Of a stretch of 29,129 nucleotides of DNA, positions 7,791 through 26,399 are shown one piece after another. The stretch covers positions 1 through 29,129 of the IMG/VR virus record IMGVR_UViG_3300049846_001059. The stretch is one strand, 5' to 3'. Numbering within the stretch: position 1 is the first letter of the stretch; each line of letters starts with the position of its first letter. The notes under the pieces were generated by a model. The model searched no databases. It was not told where the DNA came from and saw only the letters and a list, made by a program, of their open reading frames with translations. The position numbers and the translations under genes are program-made. The stretch is from a virus.

Positions 7791-8441
7791 TTACGCACGG
7801 GTGACAGGCATCGGCATCTGGAGGCGGTCGAGCAGGAGTTCAAACTGCGCGAACCAGAACTGGGACACCTGCATGATGTCGTTCGGATCCACCGCACCGT
7901 TGACCTGAGTGGCCGAGTACCGGGTGTAGTCCATCCGGTCATCGAGCACCCGAGCCGTAGCGAGCCCCATCGCGTAGAGCACCGGAAGCTCCTCGACACC
8001 AGCGGGGCCAGAGAACGCCTCCGACTGGGACGCCGTGTAGTTCGCGGACACGAAGGGCGTAAGCCGGTCGGCGGTCGTGATGCGGATCTTCGACCCGACA
8101 GCACCCGGAAGGGCGGTGTCGAGAAGGACAAGCTTCGGAGCCGTGAGCGACGGGATGATGTCGTACCGGCTGAGCGGAACATACCGGTTAGAGGCGGCGG
8201 CGGTCTCAACCTCGACAGTGAGCACCTTGCCCGTACCGACACCGGCAGGGAAAGTGTACTCGTAGGTAGACGAGGCGATGGTCAGGGTCGCGTCCTGCAC
8301 CATCTTGAAGACCTTCGGGAACATCGCAGCCTGACCGCGATTGAGGAACCGAAGCTTCGTCGCAAAGGGAACCTGCGTGTCCGCAACGTCGTTGAGTCGG
8401 TCACGCAGGTCATCGATCATGTCACCTGCATACGTTGCCAT
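7791..8441 (-). CDS. Head-tail adaptor / connector protein (216 aa)
   Basis: ATG 8441 has GGAG 7 bases upstream. The N-terminus (MATYAGDMIDDLRDRLNDV, then FATKLRFLNRGQAAMFPKVF) has the helix pair and LNR-x-Q pattern of connector proteins that bind under the portal (T7 gp11/P22 gp4-like and relatives). A beta-rich insertion follows (residues about 50-140: YEYTFPAGVGTGKVLTVEV, YDIIPSLTAPKLVLLD). The protein ends in two or three helices (VEELPVLYAMGLATARVLDDR; FWFAQFELLLDRLQMP) as expected for the ring-forming helical bundle. Length is within the 190-220 range of podovirus adaptors. Its position between head and tail genes fits. The exact family could not be confirmed. Confidence 0.65.
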   Translation of the reverse strand: MATYAGDMIDDLRDRLNDVADTQVPFATKLRFLNRGQAAMFPKVFKMVQDATLTIASSTYEYTFPAGVGTGKVLTVEVETAAASNRYVPLSRYDIIPSLTAPKLVLLDTALPGAVGSKIRITTADRLTPFVSANYTASQSEAFSGPAGVEELPVLYAMGLATARVLDDRMDYTRYSATQVNGAVDPNDIMQVSQFWFAQFELLLDRLQMPMPVTRA

Positions 8442-9585: not shown

Positions 9586-10512
9586 TTACGCGCTGACAGC
9601 ACACTCGTACCGGAGCATGAAGGCGTCGTTCAGGATCTTGGCCGTGAACGTGACCTTCCAGCCCATCGACTGCTGCTGGTCAACCGGGTCCGCCGTACCA
9701 GCCGAACCAAGCGGCTTGTAGTACGACTGGAGCGAATGACCGTCGAGGCTGATGACGCCGTAGGCGTTCGCCCCGAAGAACAGAGCCGTGTAGACATCGA
9801 TGCTGGCCGCGCCCGCACCCGCGAAGACCTTGGCCTTGTCAGAGACCCAGAACTTCACGCCGTACAGCTCACCAAGCGAGCCGTCGAACTGACGACCCGA
9901 CTGGGCGTACTGGTTGGCCGTCACCCACTCGCTCGTACCCTGAAGGTCGTAGGCGATGCGCGGGTGGAGGATGCAGTGGTACCAGCCGTCGATCTTCTTG
10001 GCGCGGTTCGTCACGAGCGTACGAACAGCCTTCCGAAGATCCGCGACCGAGATCTTGTCCGTGCTATCGACGGTGACCCGGGAGGTCGCGTCGTTCGCGT
10101 ACTGGACAGTCGTCCCGGCGACGAGGATGTCGCGGATGACCTCATCGATGGTCTCACCGGCCTCGATGCCCAGAAGGGTCGTGGTCTCGGTAAGGATCGG
10201 ATCGATGGTCGTGGTCGCCACGAGATCCGTGAAGCCGACCGCATCACCGAACTGCGAAACAGTCGCGGTGATGGCCGACACCTGAATGTCCTTCAGGGTC
10301 GGGGGCACGCCCTCGGTGAGAGGCGTGGTCGCCGTCGCCAGCGTCGAGAGGCGACGGAACTCGACGGTCTTGCCGCCGTTCTTGGGGATGGAGCGCTTCT
10401 GCGCGAACTTGTCGTGGAGGAGCACCGGGGTCGTGTATTCGAGAAGAACACGATCATAGAACGTCTTCATCTCGTTCGACAGACCGGCGCTACCGGTATG
10501 CATGAGAGCCAT
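9586..10512 (-). CDS. Major capsid protein, N4-gp56 family (308 aa)
   Basis: This is the shell subunit. ATG 10512 has AAAGGG 8 bases upstream. The sequence follows the N4-gp56 major capsid family: SNEMKTFYDRVLLEYTTPVL near the N-terminus, FAQKRSIPKNGGKTVEFRRL (about residues 36-55), TEGVPPTLKDIQVSAITATV (66-85), then QFGDAVGFTDLVATTTIDPI (87-106). Later come VTNRAKKIDGWYHCILHPRI, a central helix-and-strand region, and LYGVKFWVSDKAKVF. It ends in VTFTAKILNDAFMLRYECAV. Length is typical of the smaller members. A scaffold gene lies directly upstream and a decoration-type gene directly downstream, as expected. Assembled in the cytoplasm into a prohead around the scaffold. Confidence 0.9.
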   Translation of the reverse strand: MALMHTGSAGLSNEMKTFYDRVLLEYTTPVLLHDKFAQKRSIPKNGGKTVEFRRLSTLATATTPLTEGVPPTLKDIQVSAITATVSQFGDAVGFTDLVATTTIDPILTETTTLLGIEAGETIDEVIRDILVAGTTVQYANDATSRVTVDSTDKISVADLRKAVRTLVTNRAKKIDGWYHCILHPRIAYDLQGTSEWVTANQYAQSGRQFDGSLGELYGVKFWVSDKAKVFAGAGAASIDVYTALFFGANAYGVISLDGHSLQSYYKPLGSAGTADPVDQQQSMGWKVTFTAKILNDAFMLRYECAVSA

Positions 10513-10532: not shown

Positions 10533-11105
10533 TTAGCGTCGGGCAAGTGCCTCGTCAACGACCTTCTTGAAGTCTTCCGCGCTCATCTTCGAGAAGTCCT
10601 TTGCCTTGCTCGGTGCAGGGTTCCCGGTCTCGATCTCGGGCGCAAGCCCGTTCTCGGCCAGAACCTTGTTCCGGAGCGTCGTCTCCAGCTTCTCGTAGCG
10701 AGCAACCAGTGCAGCTGCGCTCTGGGCAATCTCGCCCGGAGTCGAGCCGGTGAGGTCGGCACCCGACAGGCCATACTCAGCGAGCTTCGGATACTGCTGG
10801 ACCGCGAACATCCGAGCCATCTCAGTCATGTAACCTGTCAGAGCATCACCGCTGTCGGCCGGGGCCTTCGGCGGCTTACCTCCCTCCGCATCGTCTCCCT
10901 TCGCGGCGGCGAGCATCGCGTCGAGCTGCTTCTGCAGCTTGTTCGCGCGAGCCGTCTCCTTGTCCTTAGCGGACTGAAGGTCGCTGATGCGCTTGTCGGT
11001 TGACTTCTGGTTTCCACCTGACTTGGACGGGTCCCCAGCGGGATCGCCATCGAGTTCCAGATCGTCACCATCGTCATCCAGTAGATCGTTCCTCAGTTCA
11101 GGCAT
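10533..11105 (-). CDS. Capsid scaffolding protein (190 aa)
   Basis: I chose ATG 11105 (MPELRNDLLDDDGDDLELDG), which has GGAG 6 bases upstream and overlaps the previous stop by 8 bases (ATGCCTGA). A GTG/TTG-type extension of 11 residues is less likely. Composition is typical of scaffolds: an acidic disordered N-terminus (residues 1-35), a charged coiled coil (about 36-68, KRISDLQSAKDKETARANKL), a Gly/Pro/Ala linker, then helices. It closes with a short basic helix (residues about 172-190, SAEDFKKVVDEALARR), the usual capsid-binding end. Its position immediately before the major capsid gene supports the call. No protease motif is visible, so scaffold release may need no cleavage or an enzyme encoded elsewhere. 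Confidence 0.8.
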   Translation of the reverse strand: MPELRNDLLDDDGDDLELDGDPAGDPSKSGGNQKSTDKRISDLQSAKDKETARANKLQKQLDAMLAAAKGDDAEGGKPPKAPADSGDALTGYMTEMARMFAVQQYPKLAEYGLSGADLTGSTPGEIAQSAAALVARYEKLETTLRNKVLAENGLAPEIETGNPAPSKAKDFSKMSAEDFKKVVDEALARR

Positions 11106-11322
11106 CGAACTCTCCCTCAAAGCCAAGGCAATCGGCAAAGAGGGCCACGATGTCGGACCTCAGAAACGCCCTTGCTTCTGCCGAGTATGCCGGATCTGCC
11201 ATATCGGAGCGTGCGAGTCGTACCGCTTGCGCCATAAGCGCTAGGTACGGACCCGAGCCATAGTCTGGCTCGCTACCTACAGTCGTGTGGGTTACCACCC
11301 CATCACCTTCAGTAGCAATCAC
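11098..11322 (-). CDS. Small protein of unknown function before the scaffold gene (74 aa)
   Basis: The only usable start is GTG 11322. Its nearest ribosome site (GAGGAGG) is just 2 bases away, too close for good initiation, but a short upstream frame ends in GTGA and could deliver ribosomes by coupling. The N-terminal 20 residues are polar and probably flexible. Residues 26-70 are helical (LALMAQAVRLARSDMADPAY; FLRSDIVALFADCLGFEGEF). The gene overlaps the scaffold start by 8 bases. I do not recognise a family; size and location suggest a head-assembly accessory protein, which is inference. Confidence 0.55.
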   Translation of the reverse strand: MIATEGDGVVTHTTVGSEPDYGSGPYLALMAQAVRLARSDMADPAYSAEARAFLRSDIVALFADCLGFEGEFDA

Positions 11323-11412: not shown

Positions 11413-14400
11413 CTACGCAACTGAGTGGAAGCGAACCCACGCAGCACTCTCGCCGCCATGCGCCTTGCGCTTCTTCGTCCGCTGCTGCGGGTGGATGAAC
11501 TCGATAGGCTTCGGCTGCGCCTTGCCGTGCTTCAGCATGTCGCCATACGAGTTGAGGATGTGCTCAACCCAGCGCTGCCAGTCATCCACCAGATCGGGGT
11601 GGTCGGCCAGCTTGTCAAAAACGCTCGACAGACGGGCAAGCCCCTTCGCCTCCTGCGAGAAGATCTCGGGGTACTTCTCACGGAAGATACGGCGCAGCCA
11701 CTGGTCGTCCTTGGGCAGCGTCTGGTAGGCCGCGAGGATGAGCATGCGGCGACGAGACTCGGAGTCGTCCTGCTGTGCCATCCAGCGCGCGAACTCCGGA
11801 TGGTTCTGAAGGTACAGCACCCGGTTCGCATCATCGGCAGCAAAGTACTGCTGAAGCTGCCCCATGCGAAGGATGTCGGTCTTCAGCTTCTCCATCGGAT
11901 GCTTCGCGTAGTAGCGGTCCTTGTACGCCTGCGGCAGAGAGTCGAAGTACGCCTTCGCCTCGTCGCGCTTGCCGTCCTGCAGCAACGCAACCCACTTGCC
12001 CATGGCCTTGGCATAGCCGCTGGAGCCACTCGTCTGCCCGTCCGGGTTGTTGGAGTAGAAGCGCTCACGCACCCACGCAGGCAGTGAAGCGAAGTACGCC
12101 GCGCCGCCAGCATAGTCGCGGCGGCGGTAGAAGGCCGTCCACTTCTCCATGTATGAGGTATACGCGATGTTCTCTTCCATCTGCTTGCGCTTCTCTGGAT
12201 GCTTCGCGTAGTAGCGAGCACGCATCCACGGGTCGAGGGAGGCAAAGTACGCCTGCGCCTCGCCCCACCGCCCAGCCTTGATGAGCCGACCCCAGCCCTG
12301 CATCGCCTTGATGTAGGCGTCATTCGCCTCCCACTGATCCTGCTTGCCGGGATGCAGCCGGAAGTACTCACGCATGATGTCGGGATGCTTCTTCATCTCG
12401 GCAACGAAGGTCGCACCGAAGTTGTCGCTGGCGCGAGCCAGAGCGATGATGTCTCCAAGTCCCTCGCGGTACTTCTGGTCGCGCTCGTACTCCATCTTCT
12501 CTGCCGTGGTCATACGCGAGTACCGCCACGAGTTGAAGTCAGGGAGGATCTTCACGAGCGGGACAAGGCTCTGACCGTACGGCCCCTTCCTCAGCTCGTC
12601 ACCAACGAAGTCGGTCGTGGGGTCGTAGTAGAAGACAAGCGTATCCTCCAGCAGCTGCTGGTACTCCAGCTCGCTCACGAGGTACAGCTGGTCGGCCAGC
12701 TCGAAGTTCTTGGACTCCTGTGCAGCGGTGATGGCGATCTTGCGGATGCCGGTGCTTTCAAAGACATCCCACCAGTGCTGCTCATGGTCGCGCCAGATAC
12801 CCTGCTCACCCTGATAGATCTCGTTCAGGCGCTGGGCAACAGCCGGGAACGCCTTCAGGAACTGTGCCTGTCGCTCCTTCCACTGCCGCACGGCAGTCTG
12901 GAAACTCAGCTCGTCCTTGAAGTTCACACGGTCGGGGCGACGGATGTTGAAGTAGCTGGTCAGAAGGTCGTCAGTCACCCACGAGGAGATCTCAGCCTCC
13001 CACTCCTCAGGGGTCTGGAAGAGCACCACGGCCTCATACAGCTCCGGGTGCGAGCCGAAGTAGTTGTAACGCGCGAGCCGCGCGAGCATCTTCGCCTTCT
13101 GGTACTCCGGAGAACCCGGGGTCAGGCGGCTGATCTTGTGGTCCCACTCCAGCTGCATGGCCTTCAGCCCGTCGAACGCAGCCTTCACAGAGTTCTGGTA
13201 TTCGAGGCTGCGCTCATGGAACCACCCGTTCTCGTCAATCGAACTCGGGTCCATCAGCTCCTTCAGGCTGCGCGGAGTGTGGATGTCCACGGTGCGCATG
13301 CGGTTCTCGGCCCACCGAAGCTTCAACAGGCTACCTTCGATGGTGCTGTCCAGCCACGCCTTGGCGGCGTCGGGGTTCACCTTCTGCAAGGCGTAGTAGA
13401 ACTGCTTGTACCCAGCGACCTTGTCCCACGTCTTCACACCACCGAAGAACAGGAGCTTCGCGGCCAACTGCGAGGCCTCGTTGGGGTCCATGCCGCCCTT
13501 ATTGAACTCGACGTACTGTCGCCACAACTCAATCGGCCAGATAGAGTTCAGGGCGTCCGCCGTTCCACCCCACGGGGCGTCCCACGGAACCTCAACCTCG
13601 CGGTACTCGCCGGTGGGGTAGCCCGCAGCATTCTTCACGGGCTCCCAGCCAGTACGACCATAGATGTGGAATGCGTTCATGATGCCAAGCACGATGTTCG
13701 TCGTGTTGGGGCTGACAATCTGCGCCCACTGGTCGAGATGCTCGTGGATGGTCTGCGGGCCTTCAGCGTTCTTGAAGGCAGGCTTCAGACCACGCGAGGC
13801 GTCAGTGAAGACACCGAGGTCGATGAACGAGTCCGGAGCCCACGGCAGGCGGATAAGGCGCGCAAGAGCATCCGGCAGGGGCTCGGTCTCCGGGTCGTGA
13901 TCCTCGGCCCACTGCTGGCGGTTGTACTGCTCAATCGCATCACCGATGCGCTGGAGGTAGTTGAACACGAACGGATGCTCGGCCAGCTCGCCAAGGTAGA
14001 GCATCTTGTTCTTCCATCGGTACGACATGAACGGGAAGAAGGTGTTCAGGAGGCGCTCGATAGGCCCATTACCAACAGTCGGCCACAGGCGCTTCAACTC
14101 CTTCTGGATGAACCCACGCGCCACGATGTCAGCGGTAACCTCGTCCCCGAACTCCTTCAGGCTGCGCCGGTAGATCTCGTCGTACATGGAGCGAGCGAGG
14201 TTCAGCTTGGCCGAGTCCTCAGCAAAGCGAGCGACATCGGCAGGAAGCTCGCTGAAGCCGACTGCCATATCGAGCAGGCGGTTCAGGGACCCACGCTGCT
14301 CGACCGTCATCCGAGCCTCTTCGAAGGCTCCGATGGGAGTCGGGGTGCGGCCGAGCTTAGCCTCCAGACGCTGAACGGCCTTCTGGATGCGCGAACCCTC

Positions 14401-17400
14401 CAGTCCCCGGCGCACCCGGGCCGCGCCGTAGACGCCCTCGTCGGTGAGCAGAGTGGAGCTGCTCTCAATGCCGAAGGAGATGAGGTCGTGGGCCATGGCC
14501 TTCGCGGAGATCTCGCCATTCGACATGAAGCTGCGGGCGCTGAACCGGTACCACGCAGACTTCAGGCGCGAGTCAACCGCATTCGTGATGCCGAACCCGA
14601 GCATCGTGAAGACGAGACGACGCTGCAGAGAAGCCAGCCCACGGAAGAACGACCCAACACCATCGATGCGGCGACCATGCCATGTCGTATCGTTGAGCAG
14701 ATCCTTGGTGATCTCGGCAATGACCTGAATGCTATCGGCCCAGACAAGCGGCTTCGCTGCATCGCGGTTCTTCATCAGGGCCTTGACGTACGGCTCCAGC
14801 CGATCCCGGATGATCTTCTGGGCAGCGGCCAGCTCAGCCTCGTTGCGCACAATGTCGTCAGCGACTTCGAGGCCGCGAGCGACGAAGTACTTCTCAAACT
14901 CCTTCGGAGTCATGAGCCACGGGAGCGCGTGGAGACGGACACCACCCGGCATGCGCCGATCCGGCTTGCCCACGATGTCGCCAAGACGCTCAAAGAGGAA
15001 CTTCCGCTCCAGCGCAACGTCGCGCTTAGGCAGACGGCCGAGATCCTTATTCCCTTCGGCCAGCTCGCGGGCCAGCTCAGACCGGCTCAGGCGGGCTCCG
15101 GGGCGGAACTGCCCCGACAGATCTTCAACGAACCAGCCCCACTTCTCCATGAAGGCGTCAGCCACGCGCTTGTCGTGGATGAAGGAACCCATGATGTCGT
15201 TTCGGTCCAAGTAGCGTTCACGCTGAGACCATTCGGGGATATCCCCCCACTGCTGCCAGAAGAACTCGGCCTCGTCATCAATACCCCAAGAGATGTGCCC
15301 AGCCTCGATCTGCTCACGGGTACGGGGGGTCCAGATGCCCCGGTCGGTGAACCAGTTCCGCATCTTGGTCCGGTGGTTGAACTCAGGCGGACCCTGCCCA
15401 TGAGCACGCAGAGCCTTCTTCACGTCGCCAACGTTGTCCAGATCGTCCACGCCAAGGAAGTGCTTGGTGGCATGCTCCAGTGAGCGCTTCTGGAACGGCG
15501 AGATTACGCCGCCATCGAACTTCTTCAGATCGCGAGACGGCGTGTACCGCTCCTCGAACATCCTGATGATCGCCTCAGGAGAAAGAGTCTCGTTCTCTCC
15601 CGCCAGCTGGCCCAGCAGCTTCTTCGCGGTCGTTGCAGCCCAGCGAGCGCGCTCCGCGTTGTAGTGCTTGCTGACCGTCATCTCGTATGCCTTCTTGAAG
15701 CCTTCGCTGCCCCACGCATGCCCAGCGGCCTCGATCTCCTTCACAGCGGCGTCCTGAGCGCGGTAGAAGATGCCAAGCGAGTAGCGCCGTCGCATGAAGT
15801 CGCGGTTGTACACGGCGCGCATCTCGTTGTAGCGGGCCACGGACGTACCCAGCTCCCGGGCAGTTTCGATCTTGGCGCGGATGACGGCAATGTCTCGGTC
15901 CAGAACCTCAGCCTGCGGAGAGGACGGAGCGTACCCCTCGGGCCTGCGAAGGCGGACAAGCAGGTTCGACTTCTTGTCACCACGCGCCTTGCGAATGGCA
16001 CGGGCCATAGCCGCCTCGTGCTTCTCCCACTCTGCGAAGTCATAGAAGTTCGCACGGTTCGGCCCGGTCAGGATGTCCTGCATGTACTGGTCGAGATGGT
16101 ACGCCTCGTCACCGACGATCTCGCCAAGGCGCTTGCTAACGCGGATCTTCATCCATTCGAGGAACTTCCGCATCTCAGGGTTACGAATAGCGGCGCGGAT
16201 CTCGTCCAAATCGGAGAACAGCTCAGCGTAGGTGATACCGTGCAGGCTCTCTGCGTGCATGTCGAACCGACGCAGGAAAGAGTCAGGGATCGCCCTATTC
16301 ATGAAGGCGTCGAGCGCCTTCTGGTGCGTGACATAGTGCTGAGACACATCGCCAGCCATCTGCACGCGCCCAAGCTCGGGGTCCAGCGTGGCGGTCAGAA
16401 GCCGACGCCGCAGCGCGCGGCCCATCTCGACCGGAGCACCGGCCACGCTCCCGATCCACCAAGTGATGTTGTTCGGCGCAAAGGCCTCGATAGCACGCTT
16501 CGCGCCGATAGTCTCAACGCGCCGCATGTGCTGAACGCGAGTCAGCGGCGGGACAAACGACTTGCCGGTACGCTGAAACTCAAACAGCTGCAGCGTCCGC
16601 TCTGCGTCCTCGATCCGCCGACGCGCACTCACACGCAGGGCGGCACCTGCCTTACCCTTCGGTGCCTTCTCGAAGAGGCGACGGGCACGAAGCAGCTCAC
16701 GCTTCACCCAGTCTTCCTCAGACATGCCCGACAGGATCTCCAGCGCACGAGACGCAACCGACAGGTGCGGGGGGTTGACTTCCTCAGGGGTCGGAACGTG
16801 GACTCCAATCTCCTCGGCGGTAGAGGCGGCTGCAGCTGCTGCATCAGCGGCAGCCTTCTCCTGCCGTGCGACAGCGGCGGCTTCGTCGCGCGCATTCAGC
16901 TCAGCGGCAGTCGGAGGCTGCTTGCGCCCGTGCCCCACAATCGCCGGGTCCGGTGTCTCACGAGCAAACGCAGCACTCTCACGCTCCAGCTGCTGCCGAG
17001 TCTCTTCGTAGAGCTTGCGAGCCTCGTCCAACCCAATCGCATCGCCAAGTCGAGAAGCCCACAGTTCGGTGCCGAAGATCTGCTCAACGTCATTGATGAT
17101 GTACTTCCAGTGGGGGATGGTCTTCAGCTCAGTGACCAGTTCCTCCAGCCCGTCGAGAGTCGTAGAAGAGAACCCCTCGTCCAACGTCTTCTTGGCAAGA
17201 GCGACCAGTTCGTTCACAAGCGCCTTGCGGATGACCCTTGCACGCTCGTGAAGGTGCAGGTTCGGGGGAGTAGCGCCCTTGAACCAACCGATGAGTGTGG
17301 CGATCTGCTGGATGTTGCCGTCCAGATCGGCATTCGTGTAGGCCCTGCGCTCAAAGACCTCGGTGGGCGCGCCGCGCACGCGCTCGGCATGGTCTTCGAG

Positions 17401-20400
17401 GATGTTCTCATTGTGCTTGCCAAGCTCCTCAAACTCACGCTCAGCGTTCGTCTGTGCAGAGCGGGCAAGGTGTTCGGCGCGCGACCGGGCATTGCCGACC
17501 AGCAAGCCAGTCTCGCGGAAGAGTTCGATGTCGTCGGGATACTTGGTGGGGACAGTCCCCAGCCCAGTCGCATTGACCTGTCGCCCGCCGTGGATGAACT
17601 CCCACTCGGACTCAGCGATGACAGCGCGCTCCTTGGCGAACAGGGTCGAGATCAGTTCGCGTGCTTCAGCGTGGAAGCCAGCGCCAGCCATATGCTTCCA
17701 GTACACGCGCGCAAGAGCAGCCCAAGTCTTGCCACCGGCAAACTCGGGCTGAGCAAGCGCGAAGAGGAACTGGAGAGTGTGCAAGCCGGGGTTCTTGTGC
17801 GTTCGCAAGCCAGCCCAGTAGAGCTGCTGGTTCGCGTAGCGCCCCTCGTCATCGACCAGTCCCCTAACGTCTTGGATGAAGTGGAACCGTCCGGGGAAGA
17901 ACTCGACACCCTGTGGGCGTCCGAGATCGCTCCAGACCTTGATCGTGTAGTCGTGCAGTTTGTTCATGAAGTCAGCGCGGCGCTTGATGCCGTCAGTGCC
18001 GTACTGAGTGATGATGGCGTGGATGATCTGGGTCGCACGACGGATCGCAATCTTCGGGTCATTCAGGCCCGACACGCCACGCGCCATCCTGTCCATCCAC
18101 TGCAGCGGGATCTCGTCATGCCCCAGCCACGAAACCGGGGCCTCCATGACCAGATCGCTGCTATGCGTCACGTCGCCAAGGCCAGCCAGCCGACGCGGCC
18201 ACCCCCACCCGCTCGGGATATCCCGGGCAAGCGGGCCATAAGGGATCTGACCAAGAGCGAGGGCGGGATGAAGGTTCTGACCGGCGCGCAGAGCCGTCTC
18301 CATGAACTGGCGCTCGGCCTGAATGATGCTCAACGGTTCATCGATGATCTCGATGCTGTACGAAGCCTTATGCTCGATGATGTCGTGCAGACGGGGCTGA
18401 GTACCGCCAGCGTCCAGCTTCGCGATCTGGTCGTCCAGCTCTGCAAGCAACGGGCGATAGCGGGCGAGCTTCCGGATGGTCTCCGGATGCAAGCCACCCT
18501 CCAGCTCGGCAATCGCCTCGCTCAGCTGGTCGCGCCGACGCGAGAGCTTACCCAGCTCCTCCTGATCGGCAAGCATCTTCTTCAGCTGCTCTTCGGCTTC
18601 CACAACCGCTGCACGAGTCTCGGCCATGCGGTCGTGCAGCCGGGTGTAGTGCTCAGAATGCTGCTCAACGACATCGTCCGGACGCTTCTCCAGCTTCGCT
18701 TCGAGCTGCGCCTTACGAGCCTTGGCTGCCTGCTCTTCGGCCTCTGCCCGCTTGAAGTACTTCTCGGCGTCTTCGGCAGTCTTGCGAAGCTTCGGCAGCC
18801 TCTCCTGCAAGCCACGAATACGAGCAACGACCCCCTCTTCGGGGGCAGTGCCAGCGACCTTGGCAGTGCGCTGGCTCACAGCCGTGAGCGTCTCCTTGAC
18901 CTCAATCGTGGGCAGCCCTGCCCGGGCCTCCATCACGCGCCACAGACGCGCCATCATGTTGTCGGGGTTGTCCACCAGCGTGCGAGCAACCGTCATGCGC
19001 ATCTGCGTAAACCGCCGCCCGCCCTCAAAGCGCGAGAGATGGAACAGCATGAACACCTGCTGACCGTATTCAGCGAAGGCAGTCGGCGTCCAGCCGCCCG
19101 GAGGCGGCACATCGGTCTCTGCGAGGATGCGCGTCAGGAGCATCTTGCCCTTAGCGAGCCGCTGCTTCGGATCGAGGATGGCGGCAAGGTACTTACCCTG
19201 CGCGAAGGCTTGGCGTCCGGGGAGCATCGAGAACGTCTGATACTGGGTACGGAGGGAGTTACGGAATGCATGACCCTCTTGCTCCGCACCGGCCTTCTCC
19301 AGATCCTCAATGAGCTGTTGCCCGACACGCTGAGCGAAGCCGCCGCTGATGTCGTCCGAGGCGGAGATACGGTGCATGATGCCAACCGGGTCTCCAGTCT
19401 GGAGGGCGTCCAAGTCCCAGCCACGGACCTCAGCCACAACGGTCTGGACACGATCAGCGGCAGCGCGCCGGTACGCTTCAGGAGTGAGCTTTCCTCGCAT
19501 CAGGCTCTTGCGAAGGCGCACGATCTCTCGCTTGGCGTTCTCGAAGATCCGGCGCTCGTTGGCAATGTAGCGCGAAGCGCCTTCGCCATGGACGCCATGT
19601 CGTGCAGAAGCCTCGATCTGACGAGGGATGTACTGCGTGCGCGTAGAAGGGAGCTTCTTCGCCACAAGCTCGCCACGCTCCATCGCCTCGCGGAAACCGA
19701 CACTCTCCAGTTGTTCGGTCGCCTCAGCGATAGAACGGGCGCTGTACTCAGCCACGATCTGCTTCGCAATCTGAACCTGCTCAGTCACAGCGTGCCCGTA
19801 TCGCGGCACACGGGCACCCGGGGTCGCGCCAACCCTCTTGTCAACCTTCGGGCCTTCAGCGATCTTCTTCAGGATCTCGGCCTTACGGGCAGCGGCGCGC
19901 TCAGAGGCCGCGACACTCTCCGGGTGGGTGGCCCCACGAAGCGTATCGAGGATGCTCTGCTCGCGCGCAAGCGCCTCGTCAAAGCCGCGCTCCCAGATGG
20001 CGCGCGCCTCCTTCTCCGTCAGGGTCTTGCCTGCCACTTCAGACAGCAGCGTGTTCACGCGGTCAGCGTGCAGCTCGTTGAAGTCGCGGAAAGCCTGCGT
20101 GTTCTCAACAAACGGGATGTTGTGAACGAAGGTGAAGCCGCTCTCGTGGGTCAGGCGCGGAGTCGCCACGTACGCAGGGCTCTCAGGCGTAACCGTGCGC
20201 TGGACGGTCTCCGCAGTGGCCTCATGCGGAGCCGGGGCCTCGCCAGCAGCAGCGCGTGCGGTCTTCGCAGCCTCGGCTTCAGCGGCCTCGGCAACGACAA
20301 CACGAGCGTGCTCTACGTCGTTGGCGACACGCTCAGCGCTACTCGTAGCCTTCTTCGCCTCTTCCGAGATCTCCTGAGCTGCCTTTGCGAGATTAGCCTC

Positions 20401-23196
20401 ACGCTCAACGCGCTGGGTAGCGGTAGCGATCTGCTGCTCCCGCCGAGCCGCTGTCCTGCCTCGGGCATTCTGGGCCTCGCGGTGAAGGCGCGTCTGGCGC
20501 TTAGCCTCGTTGCGAGACTCACGGACAAGCACATCTGTAGCAGCCTGATCCGCAGCGGCCTTCGCCGCTTCACGAGCCGCCTGCTCGTCCGCCACCTGCT
20601 TCGCAAGCGTGATGGTGGGGATCTTCTGCGTCTTCACATACGTATTGAACTCGTGCTCCGCAAGCGACATCGCCATCTGGTAGTTCTTGTCGAGCCGCGT
20701 AAAGCCGCTCTCCTGCAGGAGCAGCTCGGTCATGCTCTTCCGGAGGGTCTTGTCCTTGGTCCCCGCCATCTGCTTGTAGATGTGCGCCCGGACCTCCTCT
20801 TCGGTCGCGCCCGCAACCTTCAGGGCCTTGACCTCCTTCACGTACTTCGCGTACCGAAGATCGCTCTCGCTAACGTTCAGCCAGTCCTTCGCACCCATCC
20901 AAGTCCGTCGCAGGCCAGTTGTTCCCTGCGTAACGTCCACGGCGTGCTCCAGCCGCTGCCCCCACGTGGTCACCTTCAACGGGAGCTTCACAAACGGATC
21001 AAGAGCAAAACCGGCGATAAGGTTAGCCTGCCAAGAGTCAGGGGAGAACGGGAGGGAACCATACTCGGTCAGGGCCGCAGCCGCGTCGAGCAGGTTCGCG
21101 GAGGGACGCCCAAGGATATCCTTCTGCTGCGCCGGGTTGCCATTCACCGGGGCCTGCCCAGCAAACTGAACGTTGAACTTCTGGTAGAAGTTGCTGAGAT
21201 CGTTGTAGATGCGCTCACGGTCTGAAGCGCTGCGCCCAGTGTTGATCCCGAACCCACCGACAGTCTGGCCGTACCGCTGCGCCCAAGCATCGCCTTCGTC
21301 GCTCTGGATGTAGGTCTTGATGACCTCGTGCATGGCCTGCTGCCGCGCCCATGTCGCACGCATCCGGTCATTCGACCCACGCAGGCTATGCGCGCGCAGC
21401 CACGCGGGGTCCTGCAGAAGAGCGCGCTCACGCGCCTGCACAAGAGCCTGCTGATCGGGCGGGATGAGGTCGTAGTTGAGGTTGTCGCCAGCCATGATCA
21501 GCTCGGCGGGTGCGCCAGAAGCGACAGTAGCGCCGTACTTGATCGCAGAACCGATGGCACCAAAGCCAGCGCCGAGCACGTCGAGCCCCTGCTTGATCAC
21601 GGGAAGCTGGACAACGGTCTCCAGTACGCCGTCCTTCTGCCCGCCAGCGGCCGTGTAGTAGCGCTGCTCCCACGTGGAGCGAGCGCGGAGGAAGTCGTTG
21701 TACCTCTTCGACAGCGCGGGGTTGCGGAGGCCGAGCCCAGACCGAATAGACTTCCACTCTTCGTCAGAGAAGAAGATGTGGCGGTTGTTCTCTTCCCACG
21801 TGGCAAGTGCAGTTTCGACGGTCTTCTTGATGTCATCACGAGTCGCAAGCCGTGAGAGGTTCAGCGTCTTCGTCGCCGCGTACACGTCCTGCTCGGCGCG
21901 GAGCTGATCGCGGTTGAGTCGGTTGTTCTCCCTCTGCTCCGCGAGGTAGTCGTCCTGCATCTGCTTCGCCTTCAGGTATTCGCTCTGCAGGCGTGTCGTG
22001 TACTGGGCGCGGCGGTAGGCATACTCTTCCTCGACGCTGCGCTGGCGCTTCTCGCGCTTCCCGGTATCAGGATCGGTGTAGTACACCCAAGAGGTCTTCT
22101 CAGGATCAATCAGGCTCTTGGCAACATCGGAGTAACTGTCGTCCAGATACTGACCGCCGTTCTTCCAGTCAGCCACGATGCGGGCAGCCTCGTCCAGCTC
22201 GCCGTGCTTTCGCAGCGTCATCGCCTTGTTGAAGACCGTCTTCTTGGCAAACTGGTAGAGCAGCTCGCGCTGGAACTGGCCGATCTCGTCAGCTGTCTGC
22301 TGAAAGATCGCCACGGTGCCCTGTGGGATGACGCCAGCCTTCGGAACCTGCGTGCCACCAGAGTAGAGGCGCATGTATTCGCCTTCGATGGCCTTGAACT
22401 CCTTGGAACTCTGGATGGACTCGATCTCGAAGGAGGCATCCTCGCTCTTCGGAGCGATGAGGTTACCCTTGTCATCCTGCTTGTACAGCGCCTTGATCTT
22501 GTCGAGGTAGGTCCGATACTGCGCAGAGACCCATGTCACATGCTGCTGGTATGCCTTGTAGACCTCAGTCACCACAGTGGAGTCGAGGACGGCACCCTTC
22601 GTGCTCTTCTGGAGCTTAGCGATGTCCTGAACAACGGCCTCCAGCGCAGCACCAGCCTCAGCGGTGCCACCCTTCGCCTTGGCAAGATCCAGCGCAGTCT
22701 GCGCCTGCTTCTTGATCAGCTCGTTCGAGTAGTAGTTCTTCAGGTCAACGCCCTGCGCGACGAGCTGCCGGTTGAGAGCCGCCATCCGGTTTTCATCGCG
22801 GTCGGTGCCAGCCTTGATAGGATCCGTGTACAGCGTCTTGTACTGAGTCGGCACCCAGCGCGTGACCTTCTCGCGGACGCCGGTATCAGGGTTCACGACG
22901 TACAGCGTCTTCAGTTCGTACCCCGGCTTCGGGGCAACGCCGGGGTTCAGCAGCGAAGAGGTCTGGGCGCGAAGGCGCTCCCAAGCCGCCTGCCGAGCCC
23001 GATAGGCCGCGAGCTTCCGCCGATAGTCAGCACGAGCCTTGGCGAGCAGTCGTTCGCGCGCCAAAGCAAGACCCTTGTCAGTCGCAGAGGCGATCTTGCC
23101 CTGCGTGTCGCGGGTGTCCGCAGCGATCTTGACCGGGGTCTTGACCTCCCAAGTCCTGCCGCTACGCGCGCCAGTCGTCAGATCGGAAGTTGCCAC
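11413..23196 (-). CDS. Giant internal-virion-type protein of 3927 residues, function unknown
   Basis: One uninterrupted frame starts at GTG 23196 (GAAGGG 8 bases upstream), 4 bases after the portal stop. Segments seen: a basic helical N-terminus (1-80); helical and Tyr-rich parts to about 530; a Gly/Ala-rich amphipathic stretch near 540-580 (VLGAGFGAIGSAIKYGATVA); a long Ala/Glu/Arg coiled coil at about 870-1010; further coiled coils near 1450-1590 (RAEAEEQAAKARKAQLEAKL); an Ala-rich linker near 2100. A conserved-looking block at about 2850-3110 contains LVFTMLGFGITNAVDSRLKS and NTFFPFMSYRWKNKMLYLGE. About 48-residue repeats fill 3600-3800, and the C-terminus is basic. There is no signal peptide, no clear protease or lytic-transglycosylase motif, and no complete N4-type RNA polymerase motif set. 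The gene's place between portal and scaffold suggests a protein packed inside the head and ejected with DNA. A large polyvalent protein is the alternative. Confidence 0.8.
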   Translation of the reverse strand: MATSDLTTGARSGRTWEVKTPVKIAADTRDTQGKIASATDKGLALARERLLAKARADYRRKLAAYRARQAAWERLRAQTSSLLNPGVAPKPGYELKTLYVVNPDTGVREKVTRWVPTQYKTLYTDPIKAGTDRDENRMAALNRQLVAQGVDLKNYYSNELIKKQAQTALDLAKAKGGTAEAGAALEAVVQDIAKLQKSTKGAVLDSTVVTEVYKAYQQHVTWVSAQYRTYLDKIKALYKQDDKGNLIAPKSEDASFEIESIQSSKEFKAIEGEYMRLYSGGTQVPKAGVIPQGTVAIFQQTADEIGQFQRELLYQFAKKTVFNKAMTLRKHGELDEAARIVADWKNGGQYLDDSYSDVAKSLIDPEKTSWVYYTDPDTGKREKRQRSVEEEYAYRRAQYTTRLQSEYLKAKQMQDDYLAEQRENNRLNRDQLRAEQDVYAATKTLNLSRLATRDDIKKTVETALATWEENNRHIFFSDEEWKSIRSGLGLRNPALSKRYNDFLRARSTWEQRYYTAAGGQKDGVLETVVQLPVIKQGLDVLGAGFGAIGSAIKYGATVASGAPAELIMAGDNLNYDLIPPDQQALVQARERALLQDPAWLRAHSLRGSNDRMRATWARQQAMHEVIKTYIQSDEGDAWAQRYGQTVGGFGINTGRSASDRERIYNDLSNFYQKFNVQFAGQAPVNGNPAQQKDILGRPSANLLDAAAALTEYGSLPFSPDSWQANLIAGFALDPFVKLPLKVTTWGQRLEHAVDVTQGTTGLRRTWMGAKDWLNVSESDLRYAKYVKEVKALKVAGATEEEVRAHIYKQMAGTKDKTLRKSMTELLLQESGFTRLDKNYQMAMSLAEHEFNTYVKTQKIPTITLAKQVADEQAAREAAKAAADQAATDVLVRESRNEAKRQTRLHREAQNARGRTAARREQQIATATQRVEREANLAKAAQEISEEAKKATSSAERVANDVEHARVVVAEAAEAEAAKTARAAAGEAPAPHEATAETVQRTVTPESPAYVATPRLTHESGFTFVHNIPFVENTQAFRDFNELHADRVNTLLSEVAGKTLTEKEARAIWERGFDEALAREQSILDTLRGATHPESVAASERAAARKAEILKKIAEGPKVDKRVGATPGARVPRYGHAVTEQVQIAKQIVAEYSARSIAEATEQLESVGFREAMERGELVAKKLPSTRTQYIPRQIEASARHGVHGEGASRYIANERRIFENAKREIVRLRKSLMRGKLTPEAYRRAAADRVQTVVAEVRGWDLDALQTGDPVGIMHRISASDDISGGFAQRVGQQLIEDLEKAGAEQEGHAFRNSLRTQYQTFSMLPGRQAFAQGKYLAAILDPKQRLAKGKMLLTRILAETDVPPPGGWTPTAFAEYGQQVFMLFHLSRFEGGRRFTQMRMTVARTLVDNPDNMMARLWRVMEARAGLPTIEVKETLTAVSQRTAKVAGTAPEEGVVARIRGLQERLPKLRKTAEDAEKYFKRAEAEEQAAKARKAQLEAKLEKRPDDVVEQHSEHYTRLHDRMAETRAAVVEAEEQLKKMLADQEELGKLSRRRDQLSEAIAELEGGLHPETIRKLARYRPLLAELDDQIAKLDAGGTQPRLHDIIEHKASYSIEIIDEPLSIIQAERQFMETALRAGQNLHPALALGQIPYGPLARDIPSGWGWPRRLAGLGDVTHSSDLVMEAPVSWLGHDEIPLQWMDRMARGVSGLNDPKIAIRRATQIIHAIITQYGTDGIKRRADFMNKLHDYTIKVWSDLGRPQGVEFFPGRFHFIQDVRGLVDDEGRYANQQLYWAGLRTHKNPGLHTLQFLFALAQPEFAGGKTWAALARVYWKHMAGAGFHAEARELISTLFAKERAVIAESEWEFIHGGRQVNATGLGTVPTKYPDDIELFRETGLLVGNARSRAEHLARSAQTNAEREFEELGKHNENILEDHAERVRGAPTEVFERRAYTNADLDGNIQQIATLIGWFKGATPPNLHLHERARVIRKALVNELVALAKKTLDEGFSSTTLDGLEELVTELKTIPHWKYIINDVEQIFGTELWASRLGDAIGLDEARKLYEETRQQLERESAAFARETPDPAIVGHGRKQPPTAAELNARDEAAAVARQEKAAADAAAAAASTAEEIGVHVPTPEEVNPPHLSVASRALEILSGMSEEDWVKRELLRARRLFEKAPKGKAGAALRVSARRRIEDAERTLQLFEFQRTGKSFVPPLTRVQHMRRVETIGAKRAIEAFAPNNITWWIGSVAGAPVEMGRALRRRLLTATLDPELGRVQMAGDVSQHYVTHQKALDAFMNRAIPDSFLRRFDMHAESLHGITYAELFSDLDEIRAAIRNPEMRKFLEWMKIRVSKRLGEIVGDEAYHLDQYMQDILTGPNRANFYDFAEWEKHEAAMARAIRKARGDKKSNLLVRLRRPEGYAPSSPQAEVLDRDIAVIRAKIETARELGTSVARYNEMRAVYNRDFMRRRYSLGIFYRAQDAAVKEIEAAGHAWGSEGFKKAYEMTVSKHYNAERARWAATTAKKLLGQLAGENETLSPEAIIRMFEERYTPSRDLKKFDGGVISPFQKRSLEHATKHFLGVDDLDNVGDVKKALRAHGQGPPEFNHRTKMRNWFTDRGIWTPRTREQIEAGHISWGIDDEAEFFWQQWGDIPEWSQRERYLDRNDIMGSFIHDKRVADAFMEKWGWFVEDLSGQFRPGARLSRSELARELAEGNKDLGRLPKRDVALERKFLFERLGDIVGKPDRRMPGGVRLHALPWLMTPKEFEKYFVARGLEVADDIVRNEAELAAAQKIIRDRLEPYVKALMKNRDAAKPLVWADSIQVIAEITKDLLNDTTWHGRRIDGVGSFFRGLASLQRRLVFTMLGFGITNAVDSRLKSAWYRFSARSFMSNGEISAKAMAHDLISFGIESSSTLLTDEGVYGAARVRRGLEGSRIQKAVQRLEAKLGRTPTPIGAFEEARMTVEQRGSLNRLLDMAVGFSELPADVARFAEDSAKLNLARSMYDEIYRRSLKEFGDEVTADIVARGFIQKELKRLWPTVGNGPIERLLNTFFPFMSYRWKNKMLYLGELAEHPFVFNYLQRIGDAIEQYNRQQWAEDHDPETEPLPDALARLIRLPWAPDSFIDLGVFTDASRGLKPAFKNAEGPQTIHEHLDQWAQIVSPNTTNIVLGIMNAFHIYGRTGWEPVKNAAGYPTGEYREVEVPWDAPWGGTADALNSIWPIELWRQYVEFNKGGMDPNEASQLAAKLLFFGGVKTWDKVAGYKQFYYALQKVNPDAAKAWLDSTIEGSLLKLRWAENRMRTVDIHTPRSLKELMDPSSIDENGWFHERSLEYQNSVKAAFDGLKAMQLEWDHKISRLTPGSPEYQKAKMLARLARYNYFGSHPELYEAVVLFQTPEEWEAEISSWVTDDLLTSYFNIRRPDRVNFKDELSFQTAVRQWKERQAQFLKAFPAVAQRLNEIYQGEQGIWRDHEQHWWDVFESTGIRKIAITAAQESKNFELADQLYLVSELEYQQLLEDTLVFYYDPTTDFVGDELRKGPYGQSLVPLVKILPDFNSWRYSRMTTAEKMEYERDQKYREGLGDIIALARASDNFGATFVAEMKKHPDIMREYFRLHPGKQDQWEANDAYIKAMQGWGRLIKAGRWGEAQAYFASLDPWMRARYYAKHPEKRKQMEENIAYTSYMEKWTAFYRRRDYAGGAAYFASLPAWVRERFYSNNPDGQTSGSSGYAKAMGKWVALLQDGKRDEAKAYFDSLPQAYKDRYYAKHPMEKLKTDILRMGQLQQYFAADDANRVLYLQNHPEFARWMAQQDDSESRRRMLILAAYQTLPKDDQWLRRIFREKYPEIFSQEAKGLARLSSVFDKLADHPDLVDDWQRWVEHILNSYGDMLKHGKAQPKPIEFIHPQQRTKKRKAHGGESAAWVRFHSVA
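11660..12400 (-). repeat. About 48-residue tandem protein repeats near the C-terminus of the giant protein
   Basis: Three clear copies plus degenerate flanks are encoded here. Each holds a W/Y helix, a second helix ending AxAYFxSL, then a helix ending RYYAKHP: AYFASLDPWMRARYYAKHP, AYFASLPAWVRERFYSNNP, AYFDSLPQAYKDRYYAKHP. Degenerate versions lie on both sides (MREYFRLHPGKQDQW; QQYFAADDANRVLYLQNHP; FREKYPEIF). The layout is TPR-like in period but not in consensus. A binding role is likely but unproven. Confidence 0.8.
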
Positions 23197-23200
23197 GGCC

Positions 23201-24880
23201 TTAGCCCTTCTTGGAGTTGATCAAACTCGCCTGATTAGGAACTGCAGAGGCTTCCAGAGAGTCCGAATACGCCGCATCGTCACCGGGGATGCCCTCTTCA
23301 GGCATCGGCCCTGCGCCGCCCATCGGCAGCTCGCTGCCTCCGAGGGTCTGCAGAGCGCCCACCGCCGCCTCCATCCGATCCGGGTGGAAGCGCGGGTCCT
23401 CCAGCTGCATCGCGATCCGGTCGATCTCGGCCTCGACATCCTCACGGCCCATCTCTTCGAGGTAGGTGTAGAGGCTGAGGGCCGGGAACGGCTGAGCCTG
23501 CAGCTGCTGCAGGTGGTTCTGCACGTACACCGGGTCGTCCGTCCGGATGGCGCTCGGCCACTTGATCCGGTTCTTGTACCACCCGCCGATGTCCTTGCCA
23601 CGGATCGCCACGTCGTAGAGCTTGAAGGAGCCAGTCTGGGAGGCATAACGCCCCCTCATGACGATCTCCTTACCCGGCATGAACTTCTCCCAGAGCTGGA
23701 GGATGTACTCGTTCATGCGCGAGAGCGAGGCTCCCCAGATGGTCTCGTGCGCCTCGTTGCTCTGGAGGGTCGGGTTCAGGCTCAGGTTCGTGACGATGCC
23801 GCTCTGGTTGGTCACCGTCTGCCCGAACGAGGCTCGCGGCTTGCCCGCAAGGTCGAACAGGACATCGAGGACGAGCGTGATCTGCTCATCGATGGCCGGG
23901 GCAGTGCCCTGCCAGTTGAGGAGCTTGATGTCGCCGTCGCGCCGGATCGGGATAACCGCGCCGTTCGCAGCCACGGAGCGCCGGATATCCTCCGGTGCCT
24001 GACCACTCTGGTAGTCGAGAATGGTCGGGTTCGCGTAGCGGCTGATGATGTCGGCCTTCTGGGAGACCAGCTGGTCGAGGTACTGGTTCAGTTCCACGAT
24101 CTGGTCGATGAGATTGAGCGGCTCGGCCAGTCCGCCCTGCGGGAAGCAGGGGAACTCCACGAAGGGGATGCCCTTCCACGGGTAGCCAAGGTTCCGCTCG
24201 ATGATGGCATTACCCATCACGCGCGTGAAGTTGCCGTCCACATCGAAGACATCGATGATCGTGGTCTGGTTCTTCTCGCCAAGGCGCGCCAGATCGTCCA
24301 GAACGGTCGGCGGGAAGTCCGCCTCGCTATCGCTGACGATGTCTTCCGCGAGGTTCGGGAACTCAGCCTTCAGCCGATCCGTGTTCCGGCGACTGACATA
24401 GACGCACCGCCAGACCTCGTCCCCGTCGTACTCGGGGTAGAAGTGGTCAGGCGTGCAGTTCTTGAAACGGACCATCTCCTTCTTCGGGTCCCACCAGACG
24501 TAGACGAGCCCACGCCGAAGAACGAACGAGTCCCACGCCGCATTCCAGAAAACCTTCGGGGCGTTGTTCGCCTCCCAAGTGCCATAGAGAACCCCTTCGA
24601 GGGCCTCAGCGTGCCGCCGCGCGACTTCATCCACCCCGGAGGGCATCACCTGAATGGCGGGCATGCGACCGATAAGGCTCTGCATGCTCTTGTCCACCAC
24701 GGGCTTCAGGTAGTTCATCGTCAGCGAGTAGCGGTTCGCGGGCTCCGGGTTCGTCAGAGCGTCCCAGTGGACGCCCTTGTAGCGCTCACGAGCGAGGTTG
24801 TACTCGGCATTCCTAGCGCCCCACCGTGCTCGGAGGTCCCGGTAGAGGTCCATGACCTCCAGCCTGTTCATCTCAGACAT
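23201..24880 (-). CDS. Portal protein (559 aa)
   Basis: The start is ATG 24880, with GGAGG 8 bases upstream, overlapping the terminase stop by 8 bases (ATGTCTGA). A TTG five codons earlier lies in the ribosome site and is rejected. The sequence reads as a portal of the SPP1/P22-like type: N-terminal helices (RLEVMDLYRDLRARWGARNA), LTMNYLKPVVDKSMQSLIGR (about residues 52-71), a wing region with WDSFVLRRGLVYVWWDPKKE (about 115-134), IPFVEFPCFPQGGLAEPLNL (about 238-257), then the stem/tunnel helices LIDQIVELNQYLDQLVSQKA. The C-terminal crown is Gly/Pro-rich and disordered. It forms the dodecameric DNA channel at one capsid vertex and docks TerL, encoded just upstream, and later the adaptor. Confidence 0.85.
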   Translation of the reverse strand: MSEMNRLEVMDLYRDLRARWGARNAEYNLARERYKGVHWDALTNPEPANRYSLTMNYLKPVVDKSMQSLIGRMPAIQVMPSGVDEVARRHAEALEGVLYGTWEANNAPKVFWNAAWDSFVLRRGLVYVWWDPKKEMVRFKNCTPDHFYPEYDGDEVWRCVYVSRRNTDRLKAEFPNLAEDIVSDSEADFPPTVLDDLARLGEKNQTTIIDVFDVDGNFTRVMGNAIIERNLGYPWKGIPFVEFPCFPQGGLAEPLNLIDQIVELNQYLDQLVSQKADIISRYANPTILDYQSGQAPEDIRRSVAANGAVIPIRRDGDIKLLNWQGTAPAIDEQITLVLDVLFDLAGKPRASFGQTVTNQSGIVTNLSLNPTLQSNEAHETIWGASLSRMNEYILQLWEKFMPGKEIVMRGRYASQTGSFKLYDVAIRGKDIGGWYKNRIKWPSAIRTDDPVYVQNHLQQLQAQPFPALSLYTYLEEMGREDVEAEIDRIAMQLEDPRFHPDRMEAAVGALQTLGGSELPMGGAGPMPEEGIPGDDAAYSDSLEASAVPNQASLINSKKG

Positions 24881-26399
24881 GCGCCGTTCCTCCAAGGATT
24901 TCTCCGTTCACACCGACCGGCATCTGGTACGGCGCGGGCTTTTCGATTTTTGCCTTCGGGGCCTCGCTCCAGAACAGCCCGCCGAGCACCGGAGCGCCAG
25001 TACCGACCGTTTCGCGCGCCAGATCGACTGCCAGCGCCAGAGAGATCACCGAGTCCGTGAATGGGATGTTCTTGTCGTCAATCGAGTAGATCCCCATCTC
25101 ATCCATCAGCTGGCTGACACAGGGCAACCGGAGAAGCCCCCAGTTCCCTTCCCCGGGGCCTTCGAGAATAGGATGACGGATTGTCTGTCCGTTGTCATCT
25201 ACTGTTTCCGACATGCCCACAACCTGCCGATTATCGTCCAGAGCCGCCTGCAGGCCGTTGATGATGTCCAGCTTGTTCGCCCGACTGCTCGTCTTGTGCG
25301 GATCGACTTGGATCTTCCTCTTGGTAAGCTCTTCCTCGATCACATCGCCACCGGGGCCGGTAGCGTCGATCCGGGACCACTTCACGTGGTATTCCTTCGC
25401 CACGCGGTCGATGGTCGAGTAAATCTCCTCCCACGCGACCTTGTTGAGCCGGGTGAAGCTCACGAGCTTCCAAGGGCGCTCCGTGATGTCCAGAACGCAC
25501 CCAACGGTGAAGTCCGTCTGCCTGCCGAGGTCCCAAGCCGCCACATAGCGGTGACCATCGACATAGTCCACGTGATGCGGCATCGCAGGGTCAAACGCGT
25601 TATCCCGCTGATCCCGGGTGAACGCGAGGCCCGTGAAGTCAACAAACTCGCCGTCGAGCACCTGTCGGCGGATCTTCGGGTCTGCAGAGGCCAAAAGTCG
25701 GTCTCGCATCTCGATATCCTCGCGCGGAAGGTGCGGATTGTCGTAGATCGACCCCCGCATCGAGAAATAGCCCGGTGTACCGCGCTGCCCGCGCTCGTAG
25801 TAGAAGTAGAGGTCGTTGTAGCCCTTCGGGGTCCCGATCAGGTCGATAGAGCCGCCTCCAGCCAGTCGCATGACGATGACGTTCGTCATGAGGGCCTTCA
25901 GGTTCGGGATCCAGCCCGCCTCATCGATGGAGAGGAACCGGTAGGCGTGTCCGTCGATGTACTTCCCGTCATCGTGGGCCGACCGGCAATGCATGATCGC
26001 CCCGTTGGCGAAGATGATGTGCGGGAAGGGCGTGGACCGCATGGCCTTCACGAGCACCTTCAGCGGGCTGTCCTTCAGGAGCTTCTTCGCCTCCTTGAAG
26101 ACGATAGCCGCCTGATCGGCCGACATGGCGACCGAGATGGTCTCGTACTCGGCAGCCTTCCACTCGGCCACCGTCTTGGCCTTGATCCCGACCTTGAAGA
26201 TGCAGTGCCAGATGTGCTTGATCGCGCCGATGACCGACTTGCCCCACCGGTTGCCCGGGACGAGCGTGTTGATGTTCGCCGTGCTGTTCACGAGCCACCG
26301 CGCCTGCCCGGGATGAGGCTTCTTGGGCAGGAACGTGTTCGCAAAGAGCACAGGGTCGGTCGCGCAGCGGATCCAGAGCTGCTTAGCCTCCGGTGTCAT
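24873..26399 (-). CDS. terL: Terminase large subunit (508 aa)
   Basis: Packaging motor ATPase and headful/cos nuclease. ATG 26399 has GGAGG 9 bases upstream and overlaps terS by 17 bases; a start 13 codons earlier is less likely. The ATPase half has Walker A VPGNRWGKS (residues 47-55), Walker B FLSIDE with the catalytic Glu (155-160), and coupling motif IGTP (188-191). The nuclease half has the RNase H-like acidic residues in AAWDLGRQTD (D290), SRIDATGPGGD (D345) and FTDSVISLALA (D449). All expected catalytic positions are present, and length is normal for the family. It works with TerS and the portal encoded on either side. Confidence 0.93.
   Translation of the reverse strand: MTPEAKQLWIRCATDPVLFANTFLPKKPHPGQARWLVNSTANINTLVPGNRWGKSVIGAIKHIWHCIFKVGIKAKTVAEWKAAEYETISVAMSADQAAIVFKEAKKLLKDSPLKVLVKAMRSTPFPHIIFANGAIMHCRSAHDDGKYIDGHAYRFLSIDEAGWIPNLKALMTNVIVMRLAGGGSIDLIGTPKGYNDLYFYYERGQRGTPGYFSMRGSIYDNPHLPREDIEMRDRLLASADPKIRRQVLDGEFVDFTGLAFTRDQRDNAFDPAMPHHVDYVDGHRYVAAWDLGRQTDFTVGCVLDITERPWKLVSFTRLNKVAWEEIYSTIDRVAKEYHVKWSRIDATGPGGDVIEEELTKRKIQVDPHKTSSRANKLDIINGLQAALDDNRQVVGMSETVDDNGQTIRHPILEGPGEGNWGLLRLPCVSQLMDEMGIYSIDDKNIPFTDSVISLALAVDLARETVGTGAPVLGGLFWSEAPKAKIEKPAPYQMPVGVNGEILGGTAHV

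Follow-up and report, generated by a model that had tools for sequence, protein, structure and literature searches.

The 3927-residue protein encoded at positions 11413-23196 of the DNA analysed here is probably a virion-internal protein that leaves the head as an unfolded chain and serves as a one-piece DNA-ejection apparatus. The DNA, referred to below as the window, is a 29,129-bp fragment whose IMG/VR virus record is not backed by a larger genome. The ejected-protein reading is based on the fixed place of the gene directly after the portal gene, the modular helical architecture of the product, its lack of cysteine and the lack of another candidate in a short-tail gene set; from these features we infer the presence of the giant in the virion, its ejection and its conduit function.

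The giant open reading frame and its gene neighbourhood

The frame lies on the minus strand, starts with GTG and is uninterrupted by any stop, the calculated mass of the product being 445 kDa. Its start follows the portal stop after a gap of 4 nt, and AAGAAGGG, located directly 5' of the start, is a plausible ribosome-binding site. The GC content by codon position (0.65/0.43/0.78 for positions 1/2/3) is coding-like. Two antisense open reading frames of 1853 aa (15664-21225) and 1094 aa (12199-15483) were rejected as composition shadows of the giant's frame. The 11.8-kb open frame after the portal, pointed out in the preliminary description of this DNA, is thus confirmed by the open reading frame, by its codon-position GC and by homologous frames elsewhere. 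Promoter and terminator signals in the window did not exceed the chance level, and Rfam gave no match. The genes recognised around the giant are the following:

26383-26853, minus strand: probable small terminase subunit (by position; weak match to a PHROG of unknown function)
24873-26438, minus strand: terminase large subunit (phrog_2, 1.6e-30)
23201-24895, minus strand: portal protein (Pfam SPP1_portal, 1e-11; P22_portal, 4.8e-10)
11413-23196, minus strand: giant, proposed one-piece ejection protein (3927 aa, 0 Cys)
10533-11138, minus strand: probable scaffold protein, 0 Cys (by position and composition)
9586-10512, minus strand: major capsid protein (phrog_1357, 4e-76)
7791-8441, minus strand: portal-tail adaptor of SU10 type (Pfam SU10_adaptor, 2.8e-7)
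5880-7778, minus strand: nozzle-like tail protein, kelch-type beta-propeller of 632 aa (kelch matches up to 4e-6, profile A9)
792-5296, minus strand: two fibre-type proteins (FN3; Gly-rich tip)

The Pfam matches to portals of SPP1 and P22 type verify that the portal gene precedes the giant, as had been proposed; the scaffold placed after it in the same proposal agrees in position and composition, but has no family match. A probable decoration protein and two small proteins are encoded on the same strand between the capsid and the SU10-type adaptor genes. Genes for a tail tube, a tail chaperone or conventional ejection proteins were not recognised in the module of the window. The combination of an SU10-type adaptor, a kelch propeller and fibres with no long-tail genes indicates a short-tailed phage. 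A gene for a VSR/DUF559-like nuclease is found amid the tail genes (5296-5880), and at the same place in two relatives (G002 and G009).

Relatives in IMG/VR

Searches of IMG/VR with the capsid and portal proteins returned about 20 relatives. Full-length homologous giants are present in G001 (3727 aa), G002 (4283 aa), G003 (4345 aa) and G009 (2729 aa), and in 12 further contigs the stretch read beyond the portal matches the family profile (partial giants). Wherever a contig extends sufficiently beyond the portal gene, the start of a homologous giant follows. Compared with the window, the three nearest full-length relatives have portal and capsid proteins of 70-80% identity and G009 has 58%, whereas the giants are only 32-36% and 28.5% identical, respectively, indicating that the place of the gene is fixed while the sequence of the giant diverges fast. 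The contigs are assemblies, and the full lengths of the giants rest on open frames in several independent ones; the sequences of the family are few and divergent. Neither the giant nor its alignment matched anything in Pfam, PHROGs or the PDB, and tblastn of its two halves against phage records (50,697) gave no match, as did a search of phage records with the portal protein.

The G009 contig (54.4 kb) has a 123-bp end repeat, with the gene of the giant spanning the contig ends, and probably represents a circularly permuted, complete genome. Among its recognisable genes there is no other ejection-protein candidate. Its prim-pol matches mostly actinophages by count, other replication and lysis genes being uninformative on the host, and two scans of genome contigs for a host link gave no match. 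A ThiF-family gene, identified by Pfam in G009 (L055, 7171-7884), where it adjoins the prim-pol and PD-(D/E)XK nuclease genes, was also found by similar sequence in G002 (3794-4621). One partial giant (L044) shows an apparent frameshift at 3880-4043, where homology, including the motif DPTNAIPLK, picks up in another frame.

Anatomy of the giant

The following parts were located in the giant of the window:

20422-23196, minus strand: conserved N-terminal region, residues 1-925, present in every relative, even the most distant, G009 (alignment A1)
21496-21630, minus strand: apolar Gly-rich stretch, residues 523-567, candidate membrane-active segment
20227-20616, minus strand: long charged helix or coiled-coil-like stretch, residues 861-990 (composition heuristic)
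16927-20424, minus strand: central block, about residues 925-2090, present in the five closer giants and absent from G009
18382-18903, minus strand: coiled-coil-like insertion, about residues 1432-1605, only in the protein of the window
11413-16827, minus strand: C-terminal conserved core, residues 2124-3927, best conserved and matched throughout in G009
11707-12429, minus strand: tandem helical repeats of ~51 residues in four copies (RYYAKHP at residues 3610, 3661, 3712 and 3761)
11425-11448, minus strand: SAAWVRxH motif at the C-terminal end, residues 3917-3924, conserved in four giants but missing from G009

A second long coiled-coil-like helix occurs at residues about 1461-1560, so that the long coiled coils, the Gly-rich stretch and the repeat domain named in the preliminary description could all be found. 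The N-terminal part with its Gly-rich apolar stretch is common to all six giants compared; an HMM match covers residues 12-890 of the G009 giant, and in five of the six the 45-residue segment of most apolar composition is found at about residue 504-523. The C-terminal core is shared by all five giants that reach their C-terminus, and RYYAKHP-type motifs number four in the giant of the window and three in that of G009. The N-terminal third is the least conserved region of the giants, and the last 500 residues are the most conserved. The central block comprises ~1100 residues, in place of which the G009 giant has unrelated sequence; judged from this comparison, the block is exchangeable.

AlphaFold models of the C-terminal 995 aa (window, pLDDT 55) and of the central block (G001, pLDDT 50) were both almost all helix, with pLDDT values of about 65-84 in the C-terminal repeat region. 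A Foldseek search with the low-confidence C-terminal model yielded nothing significant, the weak lines including tape measures. That the giant contains no recognisable enzyme, as first stated, agrees with the searches of Pfam, PHROGs and the PDB and with motif scans: no Pfam enzyme domain was matched in any member of the family, and scans of the giants for HExxH, P-loop and polymerase motifs revealed no conserved match.

Two local features may be mentioned here. Within the first ~40 residues (23080-23196 in the window), most relatives have an (R/K)VWV(E/A/Q)(D/P)-like motif followed by an Ala/Lys/Pro-rich linker; the motif, a possible docking or packaging signal, is weakly kept in the protein of the window. 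The insert of the G009 giant (L056, residues ~890-1100; G009:C1 ~50600-51250) looks ADP-ribosyltransferase-like by eye (YVYRVVHEA...VYVTD...ADEVEVL); it had no match in Pfam or the PDB.

Absence of cysteine

The giant of the window contains no cysteine in 3927 residues, while its own base frequencies at the three codon positions would predict about 52. The other two frames of the gene hold 134 and 187 TGY triplets, and the other proteins of the window have 25 cysteines in 5160 residues. The counts in the full-length relatives are 0/3727, 0/4345, 2/4283 and 0/2729, and 11 of the 12 partial giants have none; the twelfth (L044) has two, which most likely lie downstream of its frameshift. The proven ejected proteins of T7 (gp15, 0/747; gp16, 0/1318), P22 (gp7, gp20 and gp16, 0/1309 together) and N4 (gp50, 0/3500) likewise show no cysteine in a total of 6874 residues, whereas the portal, nozzle and fibre proteins that these phages retain do carry it; T7 gp14 and gp6.7 have one cysteine apiece. 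Across 17 genomes or fragments, cysteine-poor long open reading frames mostly encoded proteins known or proposed to be ejected or packed in the head, with a few fibre-type and other exceptions. The trait is not exclusive to ejected proteins, since scaffolds and some fibre-type and other virion proteins also lack cysteine. Avoidance of this residue would be expected of a protein that passes unfolded through a narrow channel into an oxidising outside.

No paper treating the absence of cysteine as a general rule for ejected proteins was found in the literature searched, although size, lack of cysteine and helicity were the grounds on which a 2270-aa protein of phage StenR_269 was named a virion RNA polymerase (vRNAP; PMC10747016). 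Counting cysteines is a cheap test that picks the ejected proteins of T7, P22 and N4 and flags unannotated candidates in other phages. Candidates flagged in this way are gp20 of Bacillus phage Pony (1679 aa; L064, 19840-24879), a ctQWt234 protein (1121 aa; L003, 31447-34812) and gp10 of Stella (1637 aa; L002, 6446-11359). In crAss001, gp46, gp47, gp49 and gp50 (L065, 24509-44724; 534-2412 aa) have 0, 1, 1 and 3 cysteines, and this near-absence is in keeping with head-packed proteins.

Proposed function and alternatives

In the proposed mechanism, the giant would be packed inside the head near the portal of a short-tailed phage, exit on infection through portal and tail in an extended or unfolded state, refold in the cell envelope and carry the DNA across, one chain thereby doing the task of T7 gp14, gp15 and gp16. 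The best candidate for a membrane-inserting segment is the apolar stretch in the N-terminal part; self-assembly or docking may be the task of the helical repeats near the C-terminus, and length or cargo may be supplied by the variable centre. With 3927 aa, the giant is comparable in size to whole ejection sets (2261 residues for T7 gp14, gp15 and gp16; 4294 for N4 gp50, gp51 and gp52). A virion-type, ejected protein, as had been suggested at the outset, is well supported by the lack of cysteine, the short-tail gene set, the place of the gene and the virion association of an unrelated look-alike described below; a one-piece ejection machine, suggested at the same time, fits the data as a presumed role. 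It would count against this role, were the envelope to be crossed that of a Gram-positive host, that phi29-like phages of such hosts are reported to be without ejection proteins (PMC8954989).

A virion-packaged enzyme acting in the host rather than building a conduit, for example an unrecognised N4-type RNA polymerase, would share with the N4 vRNAP both giant size and zero cysteines (0/3500). The authors of StenR_269 guessed likewise for their giant cysteine-free protein (PMC10747016), and the scanned genes of G009 include no recognisable phage RNA polymerase. However, the alignments to N4 vRNAP and T7 RNAP were at background, no member of the family has a Pfam match or a conserved [VIL]HD[SCAG] candidate for motif C, and there are no separate gp14/gp15-like genes to build the conduit. 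A very divergent polymerase domain could escape the homology, motif-C and Pfam tests, but a packaged polymerase is considered unlikely. It is also improbable that the giant is a polyvalent protein, whose effector or counter-defence domains, arranged in series, would be injected together with the DNA and which would serve as a conduit only secondarily, if at all. Phage polyvalent proteins are encoded near virion genes (PMC5512222), and the central block is present in five giants and replaced in G009 by the insert that by eye resembles an ADP-ribosyltransferase; on the other side, no enzyme domain was found in any member, and the central block was modelled, at low confidence, as nearly all helix. 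Of the features by which Iyer et al. (2017) recognise polyvalent proteins, the giant is encoded among virion genes and has variable modules, but lacks the recognisable enzymatic domains, of which there should be at least two. The earlier suggestion of several unrecognised activities therefore gains nothing from domain searches or from the low-confidence models, and what is left of it is the exchangeable central block.

Two structural roles were also considered. The giant would be an assembly or maturation factor of the head, such as a core or internal scaffold near the portal that is never ejected, if the place of its gene between the portal and probable scaffold genes were taken as decisive, and scaffolds too are free of cysteine; yet a separate scaffold-like gene exists, and both the size and the fast divergence of the giant are ill-suited to fitting a portal that is 70% identical, which makes this role very unlikely. 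It is least credible that the giant is an oddly placed tape-measure protein of a long-tailed phage. Its length, helicity and apolar stretch and the non-significant Foldseek lines to tape measures would suit such a protein, but the SU10-type adaptor and the nozzle-like propeller protein would not, nor would the lack of recognised tail-tube and chaperone genes. With the usual rule of ~0.15 nm per residue, the giant would imply a tail near 590 nm, and a tape-measure identity was rejected on gene content.

The one-piece ejection protein thus remains the preferred reading. In a more speculative version of it, which we put forward with considerable reserve, the conserved ends would attach to the portal and form the channel while the content of the central slot is swapped between phages, making the giant both needle and cargo carrier. 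The slot would hold a coiled coil or helical module in the window and possibly an ADP-ribosyltransferase-like effector in G009.

Comparison with known systems

Most of the ejection proteins known to date come from phages that infect Gram-negative bacteria and are encoded by sets of two or three genes. Alignments of the giant by hhalign, judged against a reversed-sequence background, stayed at background level for the Eekayvirinae giants, Stella gp10, Pony gp20 and the proteins of crAss001, N4, T7, P22 and StenR_269; a match to crAss001 gp47 was rejected as a one-column artefact. The giant is accordingly without homology to T7 gp14, gp15 and gp16 or P22 gp7, gp20 and gp16. The T7 proteins are encoded by three genes after the nozzle gene, in contrast to the one gene after the portal in the window, and ejection proteins of T7/P22 type in general have separate genes after the tail genes, which is not so for the giant. 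T7 gp15 and gp16 nevertheless share with it the lack of cysteine and the proposed task. Similarly, N4 gp50 (Schitoviridae) is a giant of 3500 aa without cysteine that is ejected; it differs in being a polymerase, in having its gene after the tail genes and in its partners gp51 and gp52. The putative vRNAP of StenR_269 (2270 aa) and its counterparts in Zobellviridae are also giant, helical and cysteine-free (PMC10747016), but their genes are in the canonical place after the tail genes. The capsid proteins of the window and of the StenR_269/Zobellviridae comparison are 31% identical.

The gene order, described initially as unusual, is indeed so in relation to T7 and N4, but large cysteine-free proteins encoded next to the portal gene also occur in Stella and in Microbacterium phages. 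Gp10 of the Streptomyces phage Stella (Beephvirinae; 1637 aa) is encoded between the portal and capsid genes; it is shorter than the giant, and additional genes separate the portal gene from the capsid gene there. The giants of the Microbacterium podoviruses Akoni (gp31), ArMaWen (gp31) and Burro (gp27) exceed 4400 aa, adjoin the portal gene and have no cysteine in about 13,460 residues; giant size, a place next to the portal gene and the absence of cysteine are shared with the protein of the window. Those of Akoni and ArMaWen (Eekayvirinae) and Burro (Burrovirus) are less than 30% identical to one another, and Burro virions contain a protein of ~250 kDa that was assigned to gp27 (PMC7302621). 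Nevertheless, Burro gp27 and Akoni gp31 show no homology to the giant of the window by HMM or hhalign (probability <1%); their genes precede the portal gene rather than follow it, and the capsid gene, recognised in the window, was unrecognisable to the authors describing these phages. In behaviour, the giant resembles the Microbacterium giants most, and homology places it in none of the families tested. It is therefore a new family, unrelated to the Microbacterium giants, of a kind of protein that is already known. Given an apparent single-gene ejection family here and unrelated look-alikes in Microbacterium phages, large ejected proteins devoid of cysteine seem to have evolved repeatedly.
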